From an uncultured Verrucomicrobia subdivision 3 bacterium (GTDB lineage Bacteria > Verrucomicrobiota > Verrucomicrobiia > Limisphaerales > UBA11358), in NCBI GenBank assembly GCA_903889895.1, contig CAISYZ010000121.1, forward strand, positions 1-64,000: DNA of 64,000 nt, read 5' to 3'. Below the pieces are notes generated by a model. That model worked only from the letters and a program-made list of their open reading frames with translations. It was not told the DNA's origin and searched no databases. Position numbers and translations under genes: made by a program. Below, piece after piece: positions 6,481 to 57,466 of the stretch. Numbering within the stretch: the first letter of the stretch is position 1; the number at the start of each line of letters is the position of its first letter.

Positions 6481-6687
6481 TTAGGCTCTCAATTTTTTCT
6501 CATAGCCCCAATAATAAATGAGGTGCAGCTTCTCCACCGTCCACGGCAGGTCGCGGACGACGAAGCCGCGTCCGGCGCGCCAGAGCGGTTCGCTTTCCGG
6601 CAACGCGCAGACATCTCGCAGGCGTTTGGCCATGACGCGGCAGGTTTCGCCGAAAATGCCAGAGTTCCAGTAATGCGAGTTCGCCAT
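6481..6687 (-). CDS. 68-aa protein of unknown function, start codon overlapping the DUF262-HNH stop (TAATG)
   Basis: MANSHYWNSGIFGETCRVMAKRLRDVCALPESEPLWRAGRGFVVRDLPWTVEKLHLIYYWGYEKKLRA; second related copy at 3393-3524. Confidence 0.55.
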   Translation of the reverse strand: MANSHYWNSGIFGETCRVMAKRLRDVCALPESEPLWRAGRGFVVRDLPWTVEKLHLIYYWGYEKKLRA

Positions 6688-7769
6688 TATTTCCCAGCCT
6701 TTTCCCTGTTGTGCTCTTTGCAAAGCATCTCGCAATTTTCAGGAATGGTCTTGCCGCCATCGTGCCACGGTTTTTTATGGTCGCCTTCCATTTCCTCAAA
6801 CTTCCATTTCTTTTTTTCTTTGCACTTTGGACAAATTCCCTTTTGCCTTTCCCATGCCTCACGCTTTTGCTTGTCAGTAAAGGCACGAATGTTCAGGAAC
6901 TTTTCCTTCCCATTTAGGACATAGGTGTAAATGCCTTTCTTGTTCGTCACATCCTCATCTTCCATCAACGTTGAGATTCTCTTTTCCAGCTTCTCAGGGT
7001 CAGGTTTTTCGTCCTTGTGCACATTGTAGAGACGGCCAAAGGGCACGCCCTTCATTTCACTACGATACTCTGGAAAGATAGTTTTGACCCATTTGATGAC
7101 CACTTGAAAATACTGCCACAATTCTTTGGCGTCCTTGTGATCCTGATGGTCGGACATGTAGCCCTTGATGTCCCCGTTGGAAATCCAGTCAATAACCGTT
7201 TCTAAAAATTCCTGTCGAATCGCGACGCCGCTGAGATAGTCGTCGCCTAACTTTGGGCGATTAGCTTTGGAGAAATACCTTTTAGCATCCGTAACCCATG
7301 TCCCTGAGTAAACCGCATTTTTCAATTCTTGGGGTGTCAATTCTTCGCCAGAAATGTTGATTGTCTCGAACCAGTCCAACCGTTCGCTGTCCGTTCCTGA
7401 GCACAGATAAATCGTTAACTTGTAGTCCAAAATCTGTTTCTGCTCGTCGCCTTGAAGGTTGTGGAACTTCAGACCCTTAATCGAAAAATCCTTGTTCACA
7501 TACCTACATATCGAAACTGTGCGTTGCTGCCCGTCAATAATCTCAAAATTGCCATCTGCGCGCACTGACCAATACATGACATTCAAGGGATAGTCCTGTC
7601 TGACGGTGTTGATAACAGCGTCTCGCTGCTTGTCCTTGTAAATGAACTCGCGCTGATAGGGCGGGCGGATGTCGAGTTTGCCCCCGTAACCGCGAACGCC
7701 CTCTTCCTGCTTGTCCTCGTAACCCTTTGTCAGTTCGCGAATAGTCAGTTGTAATGGCTGGATTTTCAT
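6687..7769 (-). CDS. DUF262 domain protein with C-terminal HNH nuclease
   Basis: IDGQQRTVSICRY (DUF262/ParB-like DGQQR motif) plus CPKCKEKKKW...GDHKKPWHDGGKTIPENCEMLCKEHNREK (HNH). Confidence 0.85.
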   Translation of the reverse strand: MKIQPLQLTIRELTKGYEDKQEEGVRGYGGKLDIRPPYQREFIYKDKQRDAVINTVRQDYPLNVMYWSVRADGNFEIIDGQQRTVSICRYVNKDFSIKGLKFHNLQGDEQKQILDYKLTIYLCSGTDSERLDWFETINISGEELTPQELKNAVYSGTWVTDAKRYFSKANRPKLGDDYLSGVAIRQEFLETVIDWISNGDIKGYMSDHQDHKDAKELWQYFQVVIKWVKTIFPEYRSEMKGVPFGRLYNVHKDEKPDPEKLEKRISTLMEDEDVTNKKGIYTYVLNGKEKFLNIRAFTDKQKREAWERQKGICPKCKEKKKWKFEEMEGDHKKPWHDGGKTIPENCEMLCKEHNREKAGK

Positions 7770-8767
7770 TTTGGTCGTTCTGGATTTTTGTTTCGGATGA
7801 ATAGGCGTTTGAAAGTTTCCTTGCCATTCAGATAAGAGCCACGCCCATAAACCCCGTTCGGGTCTTGATCAACACCACGGTTGCAACCGAGAATCTCGAA
7901 TTGTTCGGGGTTATACCTATCGAGAAATGTCACGGGCACGCCCATCACACCGTCGTAGTCAATCGGAATGTCCGCAGTTTTTGACACTTCAATTGCGTCG
8001 TAGTTGTCATATTTCGGATAATCTTTGCGATTGTAATTTTTAAACAAAATCAAATCCTCGTGACGCTTCTTGTTATCAATGTTCGTGAACCAGCAAGTTG
8101 TGTTCGTGGAAATGACTCGTTGCCCATTCTCCATACGAGCCTCAGTCCCACTCAAAGGGTAATGCTCGGGGACGATGAATCCTGAAAAATTGCGGTTACT
8201 GTTTACACCAATCCAAAGCTTGTTTTCCTTAATCAGCTTGAAAACTTCTATGTAGGTTATCACGTTCCAACTGCCGACAATTAGGAATTTCTTCTTGTGC
8301 GCCGCAAGTTGCGAAACATATTCCCTGAACAACGAAAAGGGCGGGTTGGTAACAACAATGTCGGATTGCTTAAGCAACTCAATGCACTCTTGGCTGCGAA
8401 AATCTCCGTCGCCCTTCAATTGTTTAATGTCCTTGTCCTTATACTTTGGAACGTTGCCGCCTTCGTCGCCGGTGTATTCCAAGTAAATTGCCCGTTCAAC
8501 TTTGTGGCGGCTGAACAAATCCGCATCTTGATTCTTGTAGCAGGTCGTTATCAGTTTCTTCAAACCCAACTCCGCAAAGTTGTATGAAAAATAGTGGAAG
8601 AAATTACTTTTGCGAGGGTCGTCACAATTGCAAAACACGGTTTTCTTTTTGAAGTGCTTAACGTAGTGCGTCAGTTCTCTTTCGATGTCGGCAAGGATCG
8701 TGTAGAACTCGTCGTTCTTATCGCTTTTCGCCTTGTTCAAAAGCTTGTTGGTTGCGTTTCTTGCCAT
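7766..8767 (-). CDS. M.EcoRI-family adenine-specific DNA methyltransferase
   Basis: VTNPPFSLFREYVSQL (motif IV NPPF) and overall M.EcoRI-like layout; ATGA overlap with the DUF262-HNH start. Confidence 0.75.
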   Translation of the reverse strand: MARNATNKLLNKAKSDKNDEFYTILADIERELTHYVKHFKKKTVFCNCDDPRKSNFFHYFSYNFAELGLKKLITTCYKNQDADLFSRHKVERAIYLEYTGDEGGNVPKYKDKDIKQLKGDGDFRSQECIELLKQSDIVVTNPPFSLFREYVSQLAAHKKKFLIVGSWNVITYIEVFKLIKENKLWIGVNSNRNFSGFIVPEHYPLSGTEARMENGQRVISTNTTCWFTNIDNKKRHEDLILFKNYNRKDYPKYDNYDAIEVSKTADIPIDYDGVMGVPVTFLDRYNPEQFEILGCNRGVDQDPNGVYGRGSYLNGKETFKRLFIRNKNPERPK

Positions 8768-8776
8768 TTTATTTGA

Positions 8777-9241
8777 TCAGTTAAAAAAATTATTTTCGCC
8801 GAAAATCCGTTCGAGCACAACCTTGACGTAGTGGCTGGCGTGCCAGTCGCAGTGGTAATAAAAGCTGCCGGTCTTTTTGAGGACGCGGGCGAGTTGCACG
8901 CAGCGCGGGCGCAGGTAGTCAATGTAAGCCCTGGTGTTCTCGTGGCGGTCTTCAAAGGCGCGCTTCTCCTTGGTCTCGCCCCAGACTGTGCCAGTCCGGC
9001 ACGGACCGCCGCAATAAACCACGCGGGTGTCGAGGAGGCTGCCGGGCTTTGCCGGTTTGGTGGTGGTAGGGCGGCGTTGCTGCGCCGCCTTCCCTTCGCC
9101 CCGGCTGACCGGCAGGTCAGCCCTACCAGCGGAGGCTGGAGAAGTTTTCGCGCCGGAAAGCTTTTTGGCCATGCGCGGAAGTTTGCGCGGGAATATTTGC
9201 GGCGTCAATTCGGAGTTGGCCGGTTCGGCATTGTTCGGCAC
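8777..9241 (-). pseudogene. truncated DNA methyltransferase (Mod-like), 5' portion only, with internal deletion
   Basis: VWGETKEKRAFEDRHENTRAYIDYLRPRCVQLARVLKKTGSFYYHCDWHASHYVKVVLERIFGENNF is typical of Mod-like MTases, but no DPPF/Y motif is present and the ORF stops at GENNFFN. Confidence 0.75.
9065..9127. repeat. short palindromic/REP-like element with GGTAGGGC...GCCCTACC termini
   Basis: Perfect 8-bp terminal inverted repeat; internal similarity to 52204-52259. Confidence 0.6.
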
Positions 9242-9361: not shown

Positions 9362-9676
9362 ATTTCCCAATATATAGATGGCATTTCCCAAACCTTCGGC
9401 GTCGTTCCGCAATATTGCGACACGGTTTCGCAACCTTGGGAAATGATTTCCCAATATTGGGAAATCATTTTGAGATATTGCGAAAGGCCGCCAACCCCTT
9501 GGGTTGGCAACTTTAACCTTAAAAACCAACCTTCCCCACCCTGCCCCGGCTCTCCGCAATATTGCGAAATCATTTCGCAATATTGGGAAATGGTTTTGTA
9601 ACCTTGGGAAATCGTTTCCCAAGGTTGGGAAATGCCGCCGAGATATTGCGCCGCGACTTCGTTAGTTTGGGAAACT
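9362..9676. repeat. 21-bp tandem array of dyad-symmetric units (15 in-register unit positions; units 7-9 degenerate)
   Basis: Manual segmentation: 9446-9466 atttcccaatattgggaaatc, 9572-9592 atttcgcaatattgggaaatg, 9614-9634 gtttcccaaggttgggaaatg, etc. Confidence 0.92.
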
Positions 9677-9834
9677 CCAGCCACGGACCGCCCCGCCCCG
9701 GTCAATTTTTCGGATTTTTTTTAGCGGCGTTAATCCACTTCATCAGTATAAGTTATTATAATCAGTTGGTATGACTTAAGCTTATGTCCCACCGTCGGTA
9801 AAAAATAATAACAAACGAACAGAAAGAAAAAATC

Positions 9835-10455
9835 ATGATCATTAAACCGGCCATTTCATGGCTTAACACAGACTCGGATTCCGAGCTGATCAACGACATC
9901 ACCGTGGTCATCCTCGGTGTGGGCGGCAACCCGGCCATCTACAGCAAACCCACGCCAGACATCCCCTCCATCCAGCTCGCGCTGAATAATTTCAGCACGG
10001 GCGTGGCGGCAACCGCGGATGGCGGACCCTCGGTCACGTCCAAGAAAAACAACCTGCGACTCATTGTCACCGGCATGGTGCGCCAGCTTGCGGGCTATGT
10101 GCAGACGGCTTGCGGCGGTGACATGACGAACCTGCTGTTGAGCGGGTTCCCGGTGCAAAAGCCCACGCGCGCGCCCATCGGCGTGTTGGCTGCGCCTAGC
10201 AATCCGGTGCTGGCGCTCGGCACCCGCAGCGGCGAACTGGATGCGAGCGTCAACCCGGTGTTTGGGGCCTCTACCTACAACTGGAAGCTCACCAGCAGCG
10301 TCGCCGGTGCACCGGTGCTGACGGAGCAGACCACGGCCTCGTATGTCACCTTTGCCAGTCTCACGCCAGGTGCGACCTTTACGATGACGTGCTACGTGGT
10401 GGGTGCCGCCGGCCCGAGCGATTGGAGCAAGGCTGTCAGCCAGATGGCGGTGTAA
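9835..10455 (+). CDS. small protein with helical N-terminal region and C-terminal FN3-like domain
   Basis: C-terminal ...GELDASVNPVFGASTYNWKLTSS...SLTPGATFTMTCYVVGAAGPSDWSKAVSQ; layout matches the 51440-52162 protein. Confidence 0.8.
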   Translation: MIIKPAISWLNTDSDSELINDITVVILGVGGNPAIYSKPTPDIPSIQLALNNFSTGVAATADGGPSVTSKKNNLRLIVTGMVRQLAGYVQTACGGDMTNLLLSGFPVQKPTRAPIGVLAAPSNPVLALGTRSGELDASVNPVFGASTYNWKLTSSVAGAPVLTEQTTASYVTFASLTPGATFTMTCYVVGAAGPSDWSKAVSQMAV

Positions 10456-10490
10456 CTACCAGCGTAGGCCGAACAGATAAAACCAAAACG

Positions 10491-10525
10491 GGCGCGTCGG
10501 GATTGGATCCGACGCGCCTTTGATT
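10491..10525 (+). terminator. rho-independent-like terminator
   Basis: GGCGCGTCGG gattggat CCGACGCGCC TTTGATTT, directly after the FN3 gene. Confidence 0.65.
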
Positions 10526-10607
10526 TGCCACCCGGCCGTTTTTTGAACAAAAAGCGGATTGCCTTTGTCTGCTGAATCCAGAATTATTGCTCCTCACGAA
10601 TTTAACT

Positions 10608-51439: not shown

Positions 51440-52162
51440 TTAGGGGACGATCTTCGAGATTTCGCTGCTGAAGTTGCCTTCGCCGCCCGTGCCGATGGCG
51501 CGCACGCGCACCCAGATGCGCGCCCCGCTGGTGAAGCCCGGCAACACCGCCGACGACTTCGTCACGCTCTTGGTCTTGGACCAGCTCGTCGCCGTGAAGG
51601 GATCGGGGCTGGTTTGCACCTCGTAGGTTTTGGCGCCGGGCACCGGGTCCCATTGCGCATTCAGTTCCCCGTCGTGGTCGCCTGCCGTCACTGCCAGGTT
51701 CATCACCTGCGGCGGCACACCCGCCGGCGTCTTGTTGGCGCGCGAACTGAAATTCGCGCTTTGGATGGTCGCCACCGGATCGGCCGCGCTGGCGGCCGTG
51801 AGTTCCACATAATTGCCGCGCTGGGTGAGCGCCGATTCCAGCGCCGCCCGCGCGGTGTCTTTGTTGGTGGTGGCCAGCTTGGCCGCCGCCTGCGCCGTGT
51901 TGAAGGTCCCCAGCGCGGCAGCGTAAGCCGCCCGCACGGACGTGAATTCCGTCACGGGCGGCAACGGCGTGGTGAAGTTGGGGTTGCCCGTCATCGCCGT
52001 CTCGTGCCCCTCCGCGAACGGCAGCAGGTCGTTGTCCGTTTTATTGAATAGGTCCAGTTTGACTTTCGCTTTTTTCATGATGTTGAACAGTTGCGGCGGC
52101 ACCGGGTCGGCGTAAGTCAGCCCGCTGTCATACGTCGAGGAGGGGTCATCATAGTCGGCCAC
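51440..52162 (-). CDS. small protein with helical N-terminal region and C-terminal FN3 domain
   Basis: VMNLAVTAGDHDGELNAQWDPVPGAKTYEVQTSPDPFTATSWSKTKSVTKSSAVLPGFTSGARIWVRVRAIGTGGEGNFSSEISKIVP; GTG start. Confidence 0.82.
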   Translation of the reverse strand: MADYDDPSSTYDSGLTYADPVPPQLFNIMKKAKVKLDLFNKTDNDLLPFAEGHETAMTGNPNFTTPLPPVTEFTSVRAAYAAALGTFNTAQAAAKLATTNKDTARAALESALTQRGNYVELTAASAADPVATIQSANFSSRANKTPAGVPPQVMNLAVTAGDHDGELNAQWDPVPGAKTYEVQTSPDPFTATSWSKTKSVTKSSAVLPGFTSGARIWVRVRAIGTGGEGNFSSEISKIVP

Positions 52163-52408: not shown

Positions 52409-52660
52409 AGTTTAGTCGCTACAACCTTGAGTTTAGCCGTTACAAAACTTTGTGCCGTAGCTACCGCTTCAAGTTTAGTAGCTACAAAACTTCGTGTAGT
52501 AACTACTGCTTTAAGTTTAGTAGCTACAATTCTTCGTGTAGTAACTACTAAACATTGTTTAGTAGCTACAACATCAAGTTTAGTAGCTTCAATATTTAGT
52601 TTAGTAGTCTCAATATTTAATATTGAAGTTTCAACATTTAATATTGAAGTCTCAAAAACG
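52409..52660. repeat. 21-bp tandem array of dyad-symmetric units (12 units)
   Basis: Manual segmentation: agtttagtagctacaaaactt / cgtgtagtaactactgcttta / agtttagtagctacaattctt / ... / aatattgaagtttcaacattt / aatattgaagtctcaaaaacg. Confidence 0.92.
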
Positions 52661-52781: not shown

Positions 52782-54896
52782 TCAGCCCAGCGTCTTGAGC
52801 CGGCGATCCAAATCTTTCCGGGTGATGAGGTCGATGACCTGCAAATGGTCGGGGTGCAGCCGGAAGAGCAGCCGGTAATCCGACCCGATCCGTTGCCGCA
52901 TCACATTGGGCACGGCCTTGAGCCGGAGCGCGCCGACGAAAGCCGCCGGTTCGCCCGCCGCCAGCCGCCCCGCCATGATCATGGCGGCCCGGGCGACGGG
53001 ACGCGGAAAACCCGCGAGCACCAGCTGAAACCCCTTGGGAAACTCGATCAGCCGCACCGGGTGGACATCCACCGCATCCGGCGGCAGCAATAATTCGTCC
53101 TCGCGGTCCGGGGCTTCCGCCTCCTCGGGCGCCCCGGCGGCGGCGGCGTTTTGCTGCAGCGTTTCCAGGTGCGCGAGCGCCTGCTGCAAATCGCGCCGCA
53201 AATCATTCCGTTCGTGATGCCGTTCCTTGAGCGCTGATTTCAAGCCGTCCACTTTGCGCCGCAATTCCTTCAGGGCCGGCTCGTCCGCCGGATTGGGCGC
53301 AACGGGCGGCACGGGCTGGGCCGGGCCGGCGGCTTTCTGTTCCCGCCGGCTGATTTCCTTTTGCAGGCGCGCCAGGGATTCCTTGAGTTCCTGCACCTCC
53401 TGCGCCTTGGCGGCAAATTTCTGGCGGGTCGCGCGCAGTTCGGCCGATTCCTTTTTATGCGTATCCTCCGGTTCGGCAAAGCGCTGGTCGAACAGTTCCG
53501 CAATCGGGTCGTCCGGCGACAGGTTCAACTGGTCGCGCGTGCGCAGGATTTCCTCAAACACCCGGCTCGCCTGCTTTTGCGGCAGGATGGGGATGGCGCC
53601 GCGCCCGACGAGGATGCCCAGCGCGCGGAAGCGGGAATACATCAGCGCGATGGCCGAACCCTCCAGCTCCGCCGGTTCGTCTTCTTTCAGGGCCTCGGTG
53701 GCGCTTTCATCCAGCAATTTGATCAGTTCCGCCGGGTCATCTTCGGCCAGCAACAGCGCCGCGCCCATGTAGATATCATCCGGCAACTTGACCGGGTCGG
53801 GATGAACTTTCACCAGCCGGCGGAGCGCGGCCTTGTGCCCGGCACGGGTGGCCAGGACCATGACCTGCTGCCACAATTCCTTGCGCTCCGGCGCGTAGCC
53901 GAGCAGTTCAAAGGCGGTGGCGGCCTGGTCGAACAGATTGCAGGCGGCGAGCCGCAAAAAATAAGCTTCCCGCAGCGCGGCGGGAATTTTTACGGGATCC
54001 AGGCGGGCCAGTTCATACGGCTCGATTTTTTCCAGCCGTTCGGCGGTCAGGTAATCCTCCAGTTTCGCGCAGAGCTCCTCATGCGTCACCCCGGCCACGT
54101 CGGAGGAATGGTGCAGCCGCGCCTCATCCTTGGCGATGCAGCAGTGCTTGTATTTTTTGCCGCTGCCGCAGGGGCAGCGTTCGTTGCGGCCCACGCGCGG
54201 CACGGCCCGCCGCATGGTCTGGCCTTCGGCCAGCGTCTGCTTGGGTTTTTCGCCCACGTAGTCCAGCATGGATTTCTGGTAACCCGCCAGGATCTGCGCG
54301 CTTAACTCCGGGGCACGCGCGTCGAAGTCCTGCCATTCCTTGGCCGACATGGAGGGAAACCGCTGCCGCAGCAACTGGATCAGCCCGGCATCTTGCGTCA
54401 GCCTCGCCAGCAGGCACACGAACGTAAAAATCTTCACCTCATCGTCATCATGATTCTTTTGCTTCACCTGCCGGGCCACCGCCCGGACCAGCGGCATGAA
54501 TTTATCCGGCAGCACGCCGCCACGATGATCCCGGCACCACGCCCACAGCAGATGCAGCGCCGCCGCCTCGCACCCCCGGTCCAGCCGCGTCGTCGTCAGC
54601 GCCGTGAGCAAGGGCTCCACGATGTCCCCGTGCATCCGCACCACCACCCGGCCCATCCAGCCATAGTAGGGAAACATCATCGCACCGCCGGCCAGATGCC
54701 GCGCGTCCATCCGCCGGCCCGCGCCCGCCGCCGCCACGAACACATACATGAACCACTTGAGATTCTTGGACGCCACCACCTCGGCCAGCAGTTCATCCAG
54801 CGCCGCGTCCTCCGCCGGCAGCAGCTTGATGGTCTGCTCCACCACCGACAGTTGAAACTGGGTCTCCTCGATGAACTGGCTCAATTCAGGGCTCAT
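52782..54896 (-). CDS. SEC-C motif protein with coiled-coil and C-terminal RelE/ParE-like segment
   Basis: [24 protein letters not shown]-terminal [35 protein letters not shown]. Confidence 0.78.
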
Positions 54897-56065: not shown

Positions 56066-57466
56066 TCACGGCTTTATTCTCAAAATCTCCGTCTCGCATT
56101 TGACGATATGTGTGGTCTCGCGTTTCTTGCCGTTCGGCGTTTTCGCCCACGCTTCTTGCAGGCTCACATCCACGGTCGTATGCACCACCGCGCCGCGTTC
56201 CACTTGGGCAGCGGAAAGGAACACGAACTTGCATTCGTGATAAATCCTTTCGGTTGGCACTGCCGGTTTGTCGTCCACAACTGATCCTTTGATCGAATTT
56301 AAAAACAGATCAAGATCATTTTCGGTAAAAATTGCTACGGTTAGTAGCACTTGATGCTGACGCAACCAAATGTTGATTATTTCGCCATCAATGCGTTTCT
56401 CGGCAAGTTTGGCATGGTTGGCGTCGAGTTCGATACCGACGCAGCCGCGTTTTAATCTAATGGCCGCGACGGCCGTCGTGCCGCCGCCGAGAAACGGGTC
56501 GAGCACCAAATCGCCTTCGTTGGTGGAGGCCAGCAGGCAACGCTCTATCAGGGCCACGGGCTTTTGCGTGGGATGTTTGCCAAAGGTCTTCTCCGCCCCG
56601 CTGGGCGCGGTCATGGTCCAGATGGGGGAAATATCGAATTCAGAATTTCGAGTTTCGAATTCAGACTTCGCAATTGTCCCCGGTTCGTCATTCGCAATTT
56701 GAAATTCGGAATTTCTCCAGACGGTTTTCATCTGCTTGCCGGTCACCTTGCGCATCTCCTGATAGTTGAACCGGTGCTTGCTCTTTTCATTCTTCGCGGC
56801 CCACAAAACGGTCTCGGTGCTGTGCGTGAAGTAGCGGCAGGAGAGATTCGGCGGCGGGTTGGGTTTCTCCCACGCGATGTCGTTGAGCAGCTTGTAGCCG
56901 AGCTGTTGCAGGGCGTAGCCAATGGAAAAAATGACGTGGTGGGTGCCGGAAACCCAGAGGGTGCCGTTGGGCTTGAGGACGCGCTGGCAACGCTTGAGCC
57001 ATTCCCGGTTAAACTCGTGGTTGAGTTCGGGTCCGCGGGATTTGTCCCAGTCGCCCTTGTCCACCTTGACCATTTTGCCGGCGTGGCAACTGATGCCGCC
57101 GTTGGAGAGAAAATACGGCGGGTCGGCAAAGATGGCATCGAAGCGGCCTTCGGGATATTTGGCGGCAATGGCATCGAGGAGTTCAAGGCAGTTGCCCTGA
57201 TAGAGCCAGAGCGCGCGGTCGGGGTCGGCAAAAGCAAGCCGGGGCGGGTCCTGCGGACGGCCACCGTGCGGATGGTCACCATTTTCTGCTCGGTGGCTCG
57301 GTGGCTCGGTGGCTAACTGGATGCTGCCGTCGTCCTTGAGTTCAAAGGGCAGTGTGGCCACGGGTTGGCCGTGAACAAAGTCAGCGTCAGCGTTGGCGGG
57401 AGCCGGTTTTGGCGCCGGAGGTTTCTGGCGGTAAAGGGGTTTGTCGGATTTGGGCTTGCGCGGCAC
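56066..57466 (-). CDS. site-specific DNA methyltransferase (beta-class type II MTase) with C-terminal extension
   Basis: FDAIFADPPYFLSNGGISCHAGKMVKVDKGDWDKSRG; FGKHPTQKPVALIERCLLASTNEGDLVLDPFLGGGTTAVAAIRLKRGCVGIEL. Confidence 0.88.
   Translation of the reverse strand: MPRKPKSDKPLYRQKPPAPKPAPANADADFVHGQPVATLPFELKDDGSIQLATEPPSHRAENGDHPHGGRPQDPPRLAFADPDRALWLYQGNCLELLDAIAAKYPEGRFDAIFADPPYFLSNGGISCHAGKMVKVDKGDWDKSRGPELNHEFNREWLKRCQRVLKPNGTLWVSGTHHVIFSIGYALQQLGYKLLNDIAWEKPNPPPNLSCRYFTHSTETVLWAAKNEKSKHRFNYQEMRKVTGKQMKTVWRNSEFQIANDEPGTIAKSEFETRNSEFDISPIWTMTAPSGAEKTFGKHPTQKPVALIERCLLASTNEGDLVLDPFLGGGTTAVAAIRLKRGCVGIELDANHAKLAEKRIDGEIINIWLRQHQVLLTVAIFTENDLDLFLNSIKGSVVDDKPAVPTERIYHECKFVFLSAAQVERGAVVHTTVDVSLQEAWAKTPNGKKRETTHIVKCETEILRIKP
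56621..56716. repeat. palindromic in-frame insertion element within the MTase gene
   Basis: 96 bp encoding RNSEFQIANDEPGTIAKSEFETRNSEFDISPI, flanked by CCAGA at 56618-56622 and 56717-56721. Confidence 0.7.

Follow-up and report, generated by a model that had tools for sequence, protein, structure and literature searches.

The window (the whole stretch of DNA analysed here, 64,000 nucleotides) carries a tandem array at positions 9362-9676, array 1, which is 315 bp long and consists of 15 in-phase 21-bp units that are mostly dyad-symmetric, far beyond chance. The array has no strand assignment and comprises block 1 (units 1-6; 9362-9487), with the consensus half-site TTTCSCAA / TTGSGAAA, the central units 7-9 (9488-9550), with CCTTGGG and CAACTTTAACCTTAAAAACC, and block 2 (units 10-15; 9551-9676), which keeps exact 21-bp phase with block 1. 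On its 3′ side lies a plus-strand gene (9835-10455) referred to here as family-A gene 1, encoding 206 aa with an N-terminal helical bundle and a C-terminal FN3 fold; no signal peptide is apparent by eye. A G+C-rich inverted repeat followed by TTTGATTT (10490-10526, plus strand), read by eye rather than from a scan, is a possible terminator of this gene. Adjoining the array on the other side is a restriction-modification-like cluster on the minus strand (6687-9241), with a GmrSD_N + HNH protein, an EcoRI-type adenine methylase and a short N6_N4_Mtase fragment, truncated-looking. In agreement with the earlier note on this DNA, we see no transposase and no CRISPR-like spacers; the neighbors of the array are the FN3-fold gene, methylases, and an FKBP.

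The earlier note overlooked a second array in the window, along with the gene-family linkage and the candidate sigma54 promoter discussed below. Array 2 (52409 to about 52655-52660, without strand assignment) was detected by TRF and a lag scan and has roughly 12 units of 21 bp with a 42-bp super-period. Its unit, GTTTAGTAGCTACAAAAC, is unrelated to that of array 1. It is positioned directly 5′ of family-A gene 2 (51440-52162, minus strand), which is homologous to family-A gene 1. Further along, the minus strand (52785-54896) encodes a 704-aa protein that has a SEC-C motif and, at its C terminus, a weak ParE-like toxin domain.

The repeat structure of array 1 stands out in the window. Its self-match at lag 21 is 0.517 (mean 0.284 and maximum 0.408 in 594 other 315-bp stretches) and its in-register dyad score is 0.573 (mean 0.335 and maximum 0.407), both above all of the other stretches, which bears out the in-register 21-bp array that had been reported. 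Self-match at lags 42, 63, and 84 is high as well, and hence the 21-bp phase persists through the middle of the array; TRF detects parts of it at period 21. Permuting columns within units, which keeps the period while abolishing the dyad, gives a mean dyad score of 0.384, and the observed score was never reached in 2000 trials. The dyads are thus well above chance. One detail of the description needs correction: a clear dyad (at least 12 of 20 unit positions) is found in 8 of the 15 units. Four exact copies of TTTCSCAANNTTGSGAAA are present in the window (at 9426, 9447, 9573, and 9615), and 10 window matches are found at up to three mismatches (1.9 expected), nine of them inside array 1. A-tract curvature was rejected as A/T content is without 10.5-bp phasing (mean z -0.08).

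Tandem repeats of this kind are not confined to the window. We scanned 634 kb (15%) of this genome and obtained 18 signals, whereas the shuffled control gave none. Of these, 13 fall at lag 21, 42, or 63, with array 1 counted twice and one weak signal (in L050) that looks coding. The unit sequences of these signals differ from each other. The exact array 1 motif is present at only two places in this genome, on contigs C121 and C229, and a dispersed repeat family was rejected after an exact scan of genome contigs returned two contigs only, both same-genus relatives. A match at L004 (G115) was discarded as a single chance-like site with no surrounding array.

Arrays of comparable design accompany homologs of family-A gene 1. 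We examined 74 family-A genes with at least 400 bp of upstream sequence, drawn from the genus and from further families of Verrucomicrobiota. An upstream 21n array (one whose best lag is 21 or a multiple of it) accompanies 56 of them, and another tandem period (20.5-22 bp or related) is found at eight more. Downstream of family-A genes, by comparison, a 21n array is present in only two of 38 cases, and unrelated genes of the same genome have one upstream in 6 of 324 (Fisher p ~3e-45 versus family A, a value that overstates the case as family-A genes are not phylogenetically independent). The linkage extends to another family of the order (G085) and to three other families of the class (G429, G207, and G438); it fails in G312, where a more distant family-A member lacks an array. 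The copy number of family A in this genus can exceed ten per genome. A phage or plasmid module was rejected for the family-A gene, as tblastn and viral contigs gave no phage, plasmid, or viral match.

The arrangement recurs in a second protein family, B. Its members (L045 4259-4978, minus strand, and L173-L198) are helical proteins of 240 aa with a model confidence of only 73.8, no Pfam match, and no evident similarity to family A. Most of them have 21-bp arrays 5′, not 3′, with non-dyadic units TTCCCnnCnnCnnTCCCCAAT. Collectively, these data make it very probable that the array is a conserved cis element tied to the gene that follows it.

The best lags of family-A arrays are 21, 42, 63, and 84, with minorities at 41/82, 44/88, 62, and 85. 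Variants include L135, L228, L239, L213, L215, and L224, with 22-bp (44, 66, 88) or 20.5-bp (41, 82) periods. The periods amount to about 20.5-22 bp, which is two helical turns, and the earlier suggestion that the 21-bp unit reflects helical geometry is strengthened by the finding that arrays of very different sequence at homologous genes share it. The same note had pointed out that 21 bp is also seven codons, such that repeat gain or loss would preserve a reading frame. If the array encoded heptapeptide repeats (ISQYWE, FPILGN, and similar), the several long open frames across array 1 and the open frame in nearly all family-B arrays would be accounted for. However, stops interrupt all six frames in 19 of 29 family-A arrays, variability shows no codon-phase signal (mean z -0.13), and the periods of 41, 44, and 62 bp are not multiples of three. 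We consequently rejected a coding repeat, which we regard as extremely unlikely, and the frame-preservation argument is likewise not supported. The arrays also account for some of the peculiar heptapeptide-repeat ORFs that are to be expected from gene callers in these genomes.

Dyad symmetry prevails among family-A arrays (column-shuffle z often between 3 and 6), while clear dyads are absent from family-B arrays and from some sigma54-positive family-A arrays (L213-L215 and L220). Dyads in tandem raise the question of whether the array acts as RNA, its transcript forming long hairpins by which the mRNA is controlled or a small RNA is produced. The predicted fold of array 1 is indeed stable (-137 kcal/mol, z -9.8) and the mean z over 56 arrays is about -6. 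Yet shuffling the order of the units keeps the structure (mean z -0.5 over the 56 arrays), so the RNA fold follows from the unit dyads, and the long hairpin was rejected as an independently selected structure. Moreover, L213-L215 and L220 do not fold, the expected start site at loci with a sigma54 element is downstream of the array, and array 1 has no Rfam match, which also led us to reject a known RNA family. Action as RNA is in our judgment quite unlikely.

Orthologs of the window gene permit the history of array 1 to be followed. In three species (G000, G009, and G014) whose proteins are 67-82% identical, the array aligns at 66-75% identity with one gap column over 315 bp, whereas the flanking DNA is 50-58% identical with many gaps. 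Its length is 315, 314, and 314 bp, with 15 units in each. Within the alignment CAACTTTAACCTTAAAAACC is among the best-conserved pieces. Units 7-9 had been read as degenerated; the second block does resume in phase, as noted then, but the conservation of CAACTTTAACCTTAAAAACC in two other species of the genus does not fit that description. The near-gapless alignment, units 7-9 included, indicates that array 1 is old and stable and not a fast-changing minisatellite. The symmetry is retained as well: pairing at the dyad axis is 0.545 among the array 1 orthologs versus 0.15-0.38 at shifted axes. The dyad axis also has the most compensatory-type changes (11 versus 0-8).

These observations bear on two further explanations. 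Replication slippage could produce functionless intergenic 21-bp repeats, a neutral minisatellite, and the tandem structure, the large sequence diversity between loci, and the near-identical units in some arrays (L085 and L240), which suggest recent amplification, are what slippage would leave behind. It does not account for the strict 5′ location at two gene families, the fixed period near two helical turns, the dyad symmetry, the unchanged length among the three orthologs, or conservation above that of the flanks; a neutral minisatellite is strongly disfavored and, in our estimate, very improbable. Similarly improbable is a hypermutable contingency locus, in which gain or loss of repeats would turn the gene on or off, as at vlhA or nadA. 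Here, too, there is a resemblance, since in Mycoplasma gallisepticum vlhA a multigene family has repeats 5′ of each member (PMC6258824). Against it, all three species have 15 units and the units diverge in place. The expectation in the earlier note that array length would vary is not supported by this between-species comparison.

The array 1 motif is common to G000, G009, G014, G048, and even G085, which belongs to another family. In general, array sequences are kept among orthologs and are mostly unrelated between paralogs. The motif (TTTCSCAA) also accompanies more divergent family-A members in G016 and G039. In addition, an array with the array 1 motif TTTCGCAATATTGCGAAA is found at L032 11424-11740 (G000:C229), roughly 400 bp 5′ of a gene for a 3090-aa protein with autotransporter-type beta-strand repeats that is unrelated to family A. 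The recurrence of the motif at L032, G016, and G039 suggests a factor acting in trans.

Sigma54 promoters are marked by a -24 GG and a -12 TGC, and the enhancers that serve them share no consensus and are typically located some 70-150 bp upstream (PMC3844500). A strong sigma54-type -24/-12 element, defined as a score of at least 13.5 of 16 in the last 300 bp upstream of the gene, is present on the sense strand in 25 of 77 family-A genes and on the reverse strand in none of the 77. Other genes have such an element in 12 of 324 cases (p ~1e-11 versus family A). In family A the elements are mostly 100-160 bp from the start, and in the 20 genes that have both features the element is gene-proximal with the array 5′ of it. 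The window copy is weak: TTGGTATGACTTAAGCTT (9766-9783, plus strand; GG at 9768-9769 and GC at 9780-9781, 12-bp spacing) scores 12/16, no better than shuffles. Orthologs of the window gene have TTGGCATGGCGGTTGCTG (G009) and GTGGCATGGCTGATGCTG (G014), with scores of 15-15.5. Just upstream there is also a conserved sigma70-like A+T-rich stretch, TATAAGTTATA, and the promoter of the window gene may therefore be of either type. At L091 15742-16349 (G014:C58) the ortholog of the window gene is in two frames, likely owing to a frameshift; array and sigma54-type element are intact.

From the array, its dyads, the 5′ linkage, the conserved length, and the sigma54-type elements, we infer a model of protein binding, looping, and gene control. 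In this model array 1 would regulate the gene at 9835-10455 in cis, as a stable element. Dyad-symmetric protein-binding sites recurring every two helical turns would allow dimers to bind next to one another along a single face of the DNA, and an array upstream of the promoter would occupy the position of an enhancer. In the roughly one-third of family A where the promoter looks sigma54-dependent, the array might represent an oversized upstream activating sequence. An oligomeric activator (or repressor) assembled on the array could then loop to the polymerase. Each family member would have its own array, the unit sequence drifting with the gene while period, position, and mostly also dyad symmetry are kept. 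Judged on sequence, we give about even chances to the array being a many-site operator or enhancer for a putative dimeric DNA-binding protein that controls the linked gene. Several observations count against this reading: two-thirds of family-A genes are without a sigma54-type element and the window copy is weak, known enhancers have a few sites rather than 12-27, and the arrays of family B, L213-L215, and L220 lack clear dyads. Furthermore, a dedicated activator for each array is unlikely, as G000 has about seven PF00158 proteins, fewer than the array sequence types in the genome.

Which protein might bind is a related matter, and the product of the linked gene, alone or in a complex, is one candidate. 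Binding of the gene product or its partners to the gene's own array, with the two co-diverging locus by locus, would agree with the presence of one array per gene copy, with array likeness that is found mainly between orthologs, with a weakly positive correlation between array similarity and protein similarity, and with the same arrangement at family B. The structural data point the other way. In the AlphaFold model of family A (mean pLDDT 93.8) a helical bundle precedes an FN3 fold, with no recognizable DNA-binding domain; the best structural matches are FN3 domains, and the protein is about charge-neutral (13 K+R, 13 D+E). By Pfam and NCBIfam, most members give only weak or borderline fn3 hits. 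Moreover, TTTCCCAA arrays stand beside proteins that are only 16-30% identical. We consider such autoregulation unlikely.

Returning to the operator or enhancer model, the arrays resemble several known systems in part. Sigma54 upstream activating sequences, to which enhancer-binding proteins like NtrC and NifA bind, likewise have dyad-symmetric sites, located upstream of a -24/-12 promoter as may be the case in part of family A, and no common consensus (PMC3844500). Array 1 has such dyad sites, and some of the other arrays are without them. The arrays differ in having 12-27 sites in unbroken helical phase, in being locus-specific, and in their presence also at genes without a sigma54-type element. 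Known sigma54 enhancers have few sites each. Plasmid RepA iterons and parC centromere-like arrays are tandem protein-binding sites in helical phase, as the units here would be. In contrast to them, the present arrays are chromosomal, have many copies per genome, and are usually dyadic, and no Rep or Par gene is seen next to the window arrays. The GAA repeats of vlhA (PMC6258824) and the nadA repeats (PMC2791445) also lie 5′ of a gene, in vlhA at each paralog; the arrays described here differ by their two-turn dyadic unit, a different sequence at each locus, and a unit number conserved between species. REP or extragenic palindromes (PMC3733652) share the property of short palindromes in intergenic DNA; however, they are dispersed copies of a shared sequence, whereas the present units are tandem, locus-specific, and 5′ of particular genes.

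No published description of such gene-linked arrays was found in the literature searched, which included few subscription papers and no bioRxiv preprints. We raise, tentatively, the possibility of an undescribed class of gene-control or chromatin element in Verrucomicrobiota: locus-specific arrays of 12-27 helically phased dyads tied to members of a small-protein (helical-bundle, FN3) family, in which array and cognate DNA-binding protein or complex would co-diverge at fixed phase and geometry. An unexplained repeat class is now tied to a specific, widespread, and uncharacterized gene family. Should the arrays prove to be operators, their length as in-phase dyad arrays would be unusual in bacteria; they would raise the question of how one geometry persists while the sequence changes at each locus, and could provide a model for the co-divergence of binding site and protein.

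The window also has a perfect 8-bp tandem repeat, GCTCGGTG, in 3.4 copies at 57288-57314.
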